Below are positions 30,511 to 64,000 of a DNA stretch of 64,000 nucleotides, one piece after another (position 1 is the first letter of the stretch; every line of letters starts with the position of its first letter). The stretch comes from Myxococcales bacterium (lineage in GTDB: Bacteria; Myxococcota_A; Polyangia; Polyangiales; Polyangiaceae). The DNA lies in NCBI GenBank assembly GCA_903642325.1, contig CAHJWM010000006.1:1-64000 (forward strand), read 5' to 3'. Under the pieces are notes generated by a model that worked only from the letters and a program-made list of their open reading frames with translations, searched no databases and was not told the DNA's origin. Made by a program: the position numbers and the translations under genes.

Positions 30511-31860
30511 ATGGGCAAGCTCCTCGTCGTCGACGATCAACGCAACATGCGCACGACGCTGGCGATGATGCTCCGTGGCAGCGGCCACGAGGTGGACGAG
30601 GCCGCTGACGGCGCGCAGGGCCGCGAGCTCGGCGCGACTGGCGCGTACGACGTGGTGATCACCGATCTTCGCATGGGAGAGTTCGACGGCATCGACGTGT
30701 TGCGCGCCACGAAAGAAGCGCAGCCCATGACCGAGGTGATCGTGATGACCGCCTACGGCACGATCGAGAGCGCGGTCGAGGCCATGCGGGTGGGCGCGTT
30801 CGACTACATCCAAAAGCCGTTCAGCGAGCAAGAGCTGATCGTCAAAGTTTCGAAAGCCTTCGAGAGCAGGCGGCTACACGGGCAAGTGCAGCTCTTCGCC
30901 CAAGAGTTCAAAGAGCGCTATCACCTGGAGAAGATCATCGGGCGTTCGCAATCCATACGCGACGTGCTGACCCGCGTCGTGAAGATCGCGCCGACCGACG
31001 CCATCGTACTCATCACGGGCGAGAGCGGTACGGGTAAGGAGCTCGTAGCGCGGGCGGTGCACGCCAACAGCAAGCGCGCGCAGCGCCCCTTCGTAACCGT
31101 CAACTGTGCGGCCATCAGCGAAACGCTGCTCGAGAGCGAGCTCTTCGGTCACGCCCGTGGCGCGTTCACCGGCGCCGTCTCGGCGCGCAAGGGCCTTTTC
31201 GAGGAGGCCGACGGCGGCACATTTTTCTTCGACGAGATCGCGGAAACCACGCCGAGCTTCCAGGCGAAGTTGTTGCGCGCCATTCAAGAAGGCGAGGTGC
31301 GGCGTGTAGGCGAAAACAAGCCCATCACCATCGACATCCGCGTAGTCGCGGCCACCAACGTGGACTTGAGCTTGGCGGTCGAAGAGCGCCGCTTTCGCCA
31401 AGACCTGTATTACCGACTGAACGTTGCCCGCTTTCACTTGCCGCCGCTTCGAGAACGCCGCGAGGACATCCCGCTCTTGGCCGAGTTCTTCTTGGACAAA
31501 TACAACCGCAAGATGAATGCCCGCGCCCGACCCGCGGAAGGGGTGATGGATAAGCTCATCGCCTACGACTTTCCTGGCAACGTGCGCGAGCTCGAAAATT
31601 TGATCGAACAGTCGGTTGCGCTGTGTACGGGCGGCGTGATCACGGTCGGGGACGTGCTTCCCGAGGTGCCCCGCAAAGCCGGTCCTACCGCGGGTAAGAC
31701 GCTCGCGGACATCGTGGACGAGTCCGAACGACAGGCCTTGGAAGCGGCTCTCCGTGCCTCGGACGGCAGCCGCGAGCGCGCCGCCGAGGCGCTGGACATC
31801 AGCCCAACCACGCTTTGGCGGAAGATGACCCGGCTCGGGATCACGTTCGAGAATCGCTGA
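30511..31860 (+). CDS. NtrC-family sigma-54-dependent response regulator
   Basis: 449 residues from the ATG at 30511. The receiver domain (1-120) has the DD pair in VVDDQRN, phospho-acceptor Asp in VITDLRMGEFDG (about 53) and Lys in IQKPF. The AAA+ domain carries Walker A GESGTGKE (about 170-177), GAFTGA (about 215-220, contacting sigma-54) and Walker B GGTFFFDEI. The C-terminal Fis-type helix-turn-helix reads RERAAEALDISPTTLWRKM. All activating motifs are intact, unlike the regulator at 61.9-63.3 kb. It lies 66 bp after the kinase gene; its own histidine kinase is not adjacent. Confidence 0.95.
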   Translation: MGKLLVVDDQRNMRTTLAMMLRGSGHEVDEAADGAQGRELGATGAYDVVITDLRMGEFDGIDVLRATKEAQPMTEVIVMTAYGTIESAVEAMRVGAFDYIQKPFSEQELIVKVSKAFESRRLHGQVQLFAQEFKERYHLEKIIGRSQSIRDVLTRVVKIAPTDAIVLITGESGTGKELVARAVHANSKRAQRPFVTVNCAAISETLLESELFGHARGAFTGAVSARKGLFEEADGGTFFFDEIAETTPSFQAKLLRAIQEGEVRRVGENKPITIDIRVVAATNVDLSLAVEERRFRQDLYYRLNVARFHLPPLRERREDIPLLAEFFLDKYNRKMNARARPAEGVMDKLIAYDFPGNVRELENLIEQSVALCTGGVITVGDVLPEVPRKAGPTAGKTLADIVDESERQALEAALRASDGSRERAAEALDISPTTLWRKMTRLGITFENR

Positions 31861-61956: not shown

Positions 61957-63318
61957 CTAGCGGAGGCCGTATTTCTTCAGGCGATCGCGCAGAGTCGTCC
62001 GGGGCAAACCGAGGCTCCGCGCGGCCGCGCTCATGTTTTGGCCCGAGGTCTGCCAAGCATCGGTGATCATTCGCCGCTCGAGCATGCGCAATGGCTCCGA
62101 AGCGGGCGGCGCAGTAGGGAAGGTGCCGCTCGTGGTGTCGGCGTTGAATTCAACGTCCCCCGGCACGCCAAACTCGGCGATGGCAGCTCGGACTTCGTCC
62201 CTGCTCAGGCTTGGGCCCTGCGCTGTGCCCGCCGCCTCCGTGAGTACGATTTCAAGCTCTCGCACGTTCCCCGGCCAGTGATGCTCCAACAGCACCGCTA
62301 GCGCGGGCTCGCTCAGCTTGAGTGGCGGGCGTTTGCTGCTCGCCGCGAGCTCGGCCAGCACTTGCCCGGCGATGAGCTCGATGTCGGCGGAGCGCTCGTG
62401 CAGCGGGGGCAGCAAGATCGTGAAGCGCGACAGGCGGTCGTACAGCTCGGCATGCGCATCGCTGCTCGACGGCCGGCGGCGCGTCGCTGCGATCAGGCGA
62501 GCATCGAGCTGCAAATCGATATCACCGGCCACGCGCCGAAAGGTTCGCGTCTCCAGCACGCGCAGCATCTTCGCGTGCAGTGACTTGGGCAAGTCGGCAA
62601 TCTCGCTAAAAAACAGCGTACCCGCGCCGGCCAACTCGAATAGGCCGGTGCGCCCTTTCGCCCCGTCCGCGCCTGCGCTGCCAAACAACTCCACCTCGAT
62701 GAGTTGTTCGGGGATCGCCGCAAGGCTTACCGGCACGTATCTCCCGCGCGGCGCCGACAATGCATGAATGGCTTCTGCAACCCGCTCCTTGCCCGTGCCA
62801 CTCTCCCCCACGATGCTCAGAAAAAGCTCCGGGTAGCGAGCGGCGGTCTGCATTTGTTCGCGCACCGCGCACATGCCTGCGGTCTCGCCCCGAATTTTGC
62901 TTAGCTCGCTCCGTGCTGAACGGGCGGGGGAATCCGGATGTTGCGGCGCGGTGCGGTCGTTTAGCAGGGCGCGCAAGCGCGCGTCGAGCTCATGACCCGT
63001 CACCGGTTTCTCCAAGACGTCGTTGGCGCCGTCGCGGATAGCGCGGACCGTCGTGGCCACGTTCAGGTAGCCGGACATCAGCACGGCAATGGGCCGGCAC
63101 AGCAGCCGGTCGAGCTCGTGAAGCACCTGCTCGCCGCCCGCTCCGGACAGCTGAAGGTCGAGCACGAGGGCGTCGAAGGGCTGTTGCTGAAGCGCGCGCA
63201 CCGCGCTTTCCGCGTTGCCAGCCGTACGCACCTGCCAACCCAAATGCTCGAGCTCCCGTCCGAGCCCCCGAACCACGTCGTCTCCGCCAGCGACGAGTAA
63301 GACGTAGGGCGCGCTCAT
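61957..63318 (-). CDS. Degenerate NtrC-type response regulator (no GAFTGA)
   Basis: 453 residues from the ATG at 63318. The receiver domain keeps the phospho-acceptor Asp (VLDLQLSGAG, about 54) and Lys (LEKPV). The AAA+ domain keeps Walker A (GESGTGKE, about 168) but has lost GAFTGA: the segment reads LFGSAGADGAKGRTGLFE. Walker B reads GTLFFSEIADL, with Ser for the catalytic Asp. The Fis-type helix-turn-helix is intact (MSAAARSLGLPRTTLRDRLKKYG). It can bind DNA but is unlikely to open sigma-54 promoters, like other regulators that lost this loop and work with sigma-70. The kinase gene upstream on the same strand is a likely partner. Confidence 0.88.
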   Translation of the reverse strand: MSAPYVLLVAGGDDVVRGLGRELEHLGWQVRTAGNAESAVRALQQQPFDALVLDLQLSGAGGEQVLHELDRLLCRPIAVLMSGYLNVATTVRAIRDGANDVLEKPVTGHELDARLRALLNDRTAPQHPDSPARSARSELSKIRGETAGMCAVREQMQTAARYPELFLSIVGESGTGKERVAEAIHALSAPRGRYVPVSLAAIPEQLIEVELFGSAGADGAKGRTGLFELAGAGTLFFSEIADLPKSLHAKMLRVLETRTFRRVAGDIDLQLDARLIAATRRRPSSSDAHAELYDRLSRFTILLPPLHERSADIELIAGQVLAELAASSKRPPLKLSEPALAVLLEHHWPGNVRELEIVLTEAAGTAQGPSLSRDEVRAAIAEFGVPGDVEFNADTTSGTFPTAPPASEPLRMLERRMITDAWQTSGQNMSAAARSLGLPRTTLRDRLKKYGLR

Positions 63319-63540
63319 GCGTGGCCACCGAGGTCGGCAGGCAAAGACTTCGAGGCGCGGTGCATGGCTGGAGCTTTTGGCATTGCTTGAACGCCGCGCG
63401 AAGCCGCCGGACGTCGAGTCAGGGTACCGCAGTGTCCGGATACTGCGGCGGATAAAGTGCCCTGCCAGCGGGTTGAGTCGCTCGTTTCGGTAGTTTGCAA
63501 TCCTATCGGCAAACCAAGGCACTCCATAGCATTGCCTTCG

Positions 63541-64000
63541 TCATGCACGGGCGGCGTCCGCATTCCCAGCGCCGAGCGATGTTTCGAGCATTGTCGGGCT
63601 CAGCGGCCGCTGGCTGGAAGCGGCACTAGGCACGAAAACGACGAACTGGCTCCCCACTCCAATTTCAGACTCCAGCTCGACGCTGCCTCCGAGCGCCAAT
63701 GACATCTCTCTCACCAGTGACAGGCCGAGACCAGCGCCTTGTGAGGACTGCGCAGGCTCACCTTGAAAGAATGGCTCGAATACCGTTGTGCGCAGGCTCG
63801 CTTCGATACCGGGCCCGGTGTCGCGAACCCGTACCGCACAGCGCTCCGCTGTGGTCGTAACCGCGACCGTGACCTCACCGCGCTCGGTGAACTTGAGCGC
63901 GTTCGAAACCAGGTTCACGAGCACCAGCCGTAGCAGGCGGCAATCGGTTTGGAACGGGGCTGCATCTTCGGCGCCGAGCAAGCGGAGACCCACACCCTTG
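63541..64000 (-). CDS. Histidine kinase C-terminal part, cut by window end
   Basis: The visible 153 codons are the HATPase domain of a sensor kinase; its 5' part lies beyond base 64000. N-box LRLVLVNLVSNALKFT, G1 VRVRDTGPGI, F-box FEPFFQG, G2 GAGLGLSLVREMSLALGG and the last strand GVGSQFVVFVPS are all intact, so this is an active-looking kinase. It ends 222 bp before the degenerate NtrC-type regulator and is probably its partner. The sensor part cannot be described from here. Confidence 0.92.
   Translation of the reverse strand, partial: KGVGLRLLGAEDAAPFQTDCRLLRLVLVNLVSNALKFTERGEVTVAVTTTAERCAVRVRDTGPGIEASLRTTVFEPFFQGEPAQSSQGAGLGLSLVREMSLALGGSVELESEIGVGSQFVVFVPSAASSQRPLSPTMLETSLGAGNADAARA

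Follow-up and report, generated by a model that had tools for sequence, protein, structure and literature searches.

A degenerate NtrC-type regulator lacking GAFTGA, the Walker B aspartate and the receiver metal site is probably a sigma-54-independent transcription factor

The gene at positions 61957-63318 raises the question of what an NtrC-type regulator does when its sigma-54 contact loop and a catalytic aspartate are missing, and it offers a natural test of which NtrC-type parts stay needed once sigma-54 activation has been dropped. An earlier note on this DNA had read the product as a phosphorylation-controlled DNA binder, not a sigma-54 activator, with intact receiver and DNA-binding domains. 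The analysed stretch, hereafter the window, was positions 1-64000 of contig C6 in a genome of 5.8 Mb in 140 contigs. The open reading frame lies on the minus strand, starts with the ATG at 63318 and encodes 453 amino acids uninterrupted by stops. The Pfam matches above the gathering cut-offs were Response_reg, Sigma54_activat, AAA_lid_14 and HTH_8, which, together with the predicted fold, give the REC-AAA+-Fis architecture of the bEBP group. The features of the window were as follows.

61957..63318 (-), degenerate NtrC-type regulator, REC - AAA+ - lid - Fis-type HTH, 453 aa (ORF and Pfam)
62974..63300 (-), receiver domain, aa 7-115, pseudo-receiver by sequence (Pfam PF00072, 54.8 bits)
63286..63291 (-), position of the acidic pair, Ala10-Gly11, canonically Asp-Asp (alignment)
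63157..63159 (-), Asp54, phospho-acceptor position, kept (invariant column D54)
62416..62892 (-), AAA+ core, aa 143-301, Sigma54_activat (Pfam)
62785..62808 (-), Walker A GESGTGKE, intact
62725..62727 (-), switch asparagine position, Asn to Ser198 (role by alignment to PspF)
62647..62679 (-), L1 loop SAGADGAKGRT replacing HEQGAFTGAKGTRV, GAFTGA lost
62599..62613 (-), Walker B FFSEI, Asp to Ser238, Glu239 kept
62479..62481 (-), sensor I position, Asn to Arg280 (ATN to ATR)
62452..62454 (-), first arginine finger position, Arg to His289 (role taken from PspF R162)
61969..62091 (-), Fis-type helix-turn-helix HTH_8, aa 410-450, intact (Pfam)
30514..31860 (+), canonical NtrC-type regulator, for comparison only
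63541..64000 (-), hybrid histidine kinase, 3' part in the window, extending past it to C6:66165
63427..63448 (-), palindrome CCGCAGTATCCGGACACTGCGG, weak candidate operator, about 110 bp upstream of the ATG

The L1 region of the regulator reads ELFGSAGADGAKGRTG, against ELFGHEQGAFTGAKGTRVG in its closest intact relative (G064a), which is three codons longer at this point. GAFTGA is absent (SAGADGAKG), the motif being aligned by MAFFT as GA-DGA with a gap placement that is ambiguous by a residue. The Walker A motif is intact, but Walker B has Ser in place of Asp (LFFSE) and keeps only the Glu of the Asp-Glu pair. Both losses had been claimed in the earlier note and were confirmed, as was the canonical regulator that it had placed at about 30.5-31.9 kb, which carries ELFGHARGAFTGA and FFFDEI. 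Residue roles were assigned by alignment to PspF and NtrC1, from established knowledge and PMC7175178. On this assignment the switch Asn (N198S), the sensor I Asn (ATN to ATR) and the first arginine finger (R289) were lost as well; the second arginine finger (LYDRL) and the sensor II segment WPGNVREL were still present. As Walker A and the Walker B Glu are kept, the protein may still bind ATP and possibly hydrolyse it weakly.

Near-invariant columns, defined as at least 90% conserved among 40 canonical relatives, were retained in the AAA+ core at 36 of 51 positions in the regulator versus 44-51 in the canonical relatives, and outside the core at 10 of 12 positions in the lid and both positions in the HTH. 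The Sigma54_activat score of the regulator was 115.9 bits versus 235.3 bits for the canonical regulator at 30514-31860. Identity to relatives was 48-61% in the HTH, above that of the other domains, and the claim of an intact DNA-binding domain was confirmed. The erosion of the AAA+ domain is selective, falling on motor residues with the lid and HTH columns largely kept. The AlphaFold model kept the AAA+ fold, with a mean pLDDT of 89.4 and low values only in linkers; its input alignment consisted mostly of canonical relatives, and the model therefore shows compatibility of sequence and fold only. A Foldseek search of this model against the PDB ranked Brucella abortus NtrX (5m7n/5m7o/5m7p) first, as the closest solved full-length fold, followed by NtrC1 and NtrC4. 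By sequence and model, the scaffold is kept and the motor residues have eroded. A frameshift or assembly error was considered for the odd loop and rejected as unlikely because its codons are ordinary and preserve the reading frame, the flanking motifs align and a comparable loss occurs in a relative.

The receiver domain gave a different result from that previously claimed. The segment that is canonically LLVDDD reads LLVAGG, with Ala10 and Gly11 in place of the acidic pair, although Asp54, Ser82 and Lys104 are present. The receiver catalytic set consists of five residues (DD, D, T, K), and receivers missing key residues are termed pseudo-receivers (PMC12632262, a review). With both Mg2+-binding acidic residues gone, the domain is a pseudo-receiver by that definition, and control by phosphorylation was not supported, as the acidic residues that hold Mg2+ for phosphotransfer are both missing. 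Since Asp54, Ser82 and Lys104 remain, some acetyl-phosphate chemistry or a weak phospho-switch may persist.

Taken together, these results suggest that the regulator probably descends from sigma-54 enhancer-binding response regulators and is now a sigma-54-independent, hydrolysis-dead, HTH-dependent transcription factor that is not conventionally phosphorylated. Such a protein would neither hydrolyse ATP nor remodel the sigma-54 polymerase, and would not be phosphorylated in the ordinary manner. It would bind DNA through the HTH, either dimeric or in an oligomer stabilised by nucleotide, and could repress or activate sigma-70-type promoters. Its activity might be set by protein level, by the binding of a nucleotide (at the kept Walker A) or a ligand, or by contacts with a partner such as the adjoining hybrid kinase or a second degenerate regulator, P0002. 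The part of the earlier note that described a DNA binder and not a sigma-54 activator is well supported by the sequence, in which L1, the Walker B Asp, the switch Asn, the sensor I Asn and one arginine finger are lost and the HTH is conserved. The loss of GAFTGA alone is no absolute proof of sigma-54 independence, since sigma-54-dependent flagellar genes were affected in Caulobacter NtrC mutants without GAFTGA (PMC12421884).

The hybrid histidine kinase (C6:63541-66165, minus strand) lies directly upstream of the regulator on the same strand, at a distance of 222 bp, and its domain order is ETR1_N, HisKA, HATPase, REC, HisKA, HATPase (Pfam). The N terminus is ETR1_N-like (35.2 bits) and, by eye, has no Cys matching that of the copper site in the plant ethylene receptor. 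This kinase, with its recognisable HisKA, HATPase and REC domains, could phosphorylate the kept Asp54, supported by Ser82 and Lys104, and thereby change DNA binding at sigma-70 promoters; we consider such control by phosphorylation unlikely. The metal-binding acidic pair is Ala-Gly here and Glu-Gly in a related protein (G119a), and a two-domain REC-HTH_8 protein nearby (C6:67730-68494) has an intact-looking receiver and appears from its sequence to be the better phosphorylation target. Moreover, a conserved kinase-regulator pair was looked for and rejected: the kinase had only three close homologues in 108 family genomes, none of which had such a regulator in the fetched flanks, and no such kinase was found beside G119a or G069. 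Some signalling link between the regulator and the adjoining kinase is nevertheless plausible.

The genome encodes rpoN and 28 activator-type Sigma54_activat proteins, of which 25 are canonical or nearly so, one of them with GAFAGV. The remaining three lack GAFTGA, namely the regulator at 61957-63318, P0002 and the protein at C2:162310-163659, and the Walker B Asp is replaced in all of them (Ser, Arg and His, respectively). P0002 is encoded at C6:66347-67675 (+) (L050:8348-9676, +), just past the window and about 3 kb upstream of the regulator gene, so that two GAFTGA-less regulators flank one hybrid histidine kinase. With three degenerate proteins picked among 28, the probability that two fall within 5 kb was about 0.016, a post hoc figure. 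P0002 is even more degenerate, with no GAFTGA, a Walker B of LCLRE and an intact HTH_8, and gave no receiver match in Pfam; its best family relatives are 36-40% identical, and none was flagged as degenerate in the survey. The third protein (L297:2310-3659, -) is encoded directly downstream of a same-strand catalase-like gene.

Relatives were drawn from the large family and the order, whose genomes are rich in sigma-54-type activators. The closest homologue, G064a (same family, L160), is 44-45% identical overall and 61% identical in the HTH, and differs from the regulator in being fully canonical, with GAFTGA, the Walker B Asp and a VDDD receiver. G119a is 41% identical and carries SGAQGQ, LFLSE and the Glu-Gly receiver, and G069b has no GAFTGA and reads LFLEE. 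The AAA+ domain is canonical in G163 and G164, and GAFTNA replaces GAFTGA in G005 and G006. A scan of genome contigs returned only regulators 28-39% identical, mostly canonical. Among about 260 homologues, a set biased towards relatives of the regulator, 252 had both L1 and the Walker B Asp, five lacked or missed both, and three had only an odd L1. The pattern appears to be more than chance; the two were mostly lost together, as would be expected if the motor were no longer selected. A tandem pair in G069 (L161:2328-3701 and L161:3764-5065) has eroded Walker A and GAFTGA motifs and intact receiver acidic residues. In the relatives on L162, L163, L164 and L165 the AAA+ domain is intact and carries GAYTGA or GSYTGA, but the receiver core is unrecognisable, and this opposite pattern indicates that the phospho-switch and the motor were lost independently in this group.

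In the phylogeny, the regulator, G119a and G069b formed a clade (UFBoot 96-98, SH-aLRT 81-91), also with the motif columns masked. A single ancestral loss was not accepted as proven: in the AU test, a tree pairing the regulator with intact G064a was not rejected (p = 0.29), and the clade may reflect long-branch attraction. The sequences favour one ancestral loss, but these three proteins may have lost the motifs in parallel. A broader proposal is that a small regulator lineage in the order lost the sigma-54 contact and the ATP motor ancestrally, with some members also losing the phospho-switch, and that at this locus the regulator forms a module with the independently degenerate P0002 and the intervening hybrid kinase, signalling without phosphotransfer or ATP hydrolysis. 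In this full form, the proposal would be rather improbable.

That the gene is a non-functional duplicate or a pseudogene in decay, without any selected role, would also explain why many catalytic residues are lost at several places and why none of seven other same-genus genomes holds a close orthologue. The frame, however, is open over its full length with normal codon-position GC (0.71/0.49/0.79), the HTH and the predicted fold are intact, and the erosion is concentrated in motor residues instead of being evenly spread. Two other genera also hold full-length relatives that lack GAFTGA (G119a and G069b), and this speaks against a recent pseudogene; the explanation has a low probability.

Similarly improbable is a dominant-negative role, in which the regulator would enter mixed rings with intact sigma-54 activators, or compete with them at enhancer sites, and silence their promoters. 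The kept AAA+ fold, Walker A and one arginine finger, the HTH 61% identical to that of the intact G064a, and the roughly 25 intact or nearly intact activators encoded with rpoN would suit such a role, but the genome has no intact close paralogue, the best full-length one being 35% identical. That the protein is still an active sigma-54 activator with a variant loop and catalytic site is very improbable, for although divergent motifs such as GVATGV have been predicted to be functional (PMC4641369) and Walker A and the Walker B Glu are present, the aromatic/Thr core of L1 is gone along with the Walker B Asp, switch Asn, sensor I Asn and one arginine finger, and the Walker B Asp is missing in all three GAFTGA-less proteins of the genome.

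The favoured reading, a sigma-54-independent DNA-binding regulator, has precedents. GAFTGA-less regulators acting at sigma-70 promoters include NtrC of R. capsulatus, for which ATP binding and phosphorylation are needed but hydrolysis is not, NtrC of Caulobacter, which requires both Walker motifs, and VpsR, which requires neither ATP nor phosphorylation; NtrX in Caulobacter was grouped with the GAFTGA-less bEBPs (PMC10274813). VpsR of Vibrio cholerae binds c-di-GMP (title of PDB 7v2b) and is about 26% identical to the regulator in structural alignment. Brucella NtrX, despite its similar fold, differs in being about 30% identical and in having been solved with ATP and ADP. The R. capsulatus and Caulobacter NtrC proteins are, like the regulator, REC-AAA+-HTH response regulators whose L1 loop is altered or deleted; for activation they depend on the phosphorylatable Asp, and Walker A (in Caulobacter NtrC also Walker B) is required for function, whereas in the regulator neither the Walker B Asp nor the receiver metal site is left. 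Among other bEBP relatives, HupR is a response regulator with a receiver, whereas TyrR and DhaR are not. All three are listed as having lost sigma-54 interaction (PMC3162934), and in this they resemble the regulator.

With bEBP homology, a lost GAFTGA and a kept HTH, the regulator falls within the already established class of GAFTGA-less NtrC-type regulators. What sets it apart among the systems compared is that the loop, the Walker B Asp and the receiver metal site are lost together, a combination that we did not find described for one regulator in the open-access literature. The fold, Walker A and HTH were retained while the motor and phospho-switch residues went together. Annotation by domain matches alone would label the protein a phosphorylated response regulator as well as a sigma-54 activator; both labels are probably wrong.

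Upstream of the gene, the 22-bp near-perfect palindrome at 63427-63448 is the only exact copy in the genome. It was not enriched genome-wide, since up to 3 mismatches gave 452 sites versus 444 for the control, and comparable palindromes are present at further promoters; its role as the operator of a regulon was accordingly rejected. The palindrome may be an auto-operator. On L190, a perfect dyad, TTGCACCATTGGTGCAA, that resembles the E. coli NtrC site lies about 43 bp upstream of the gene for the G164 regulator.
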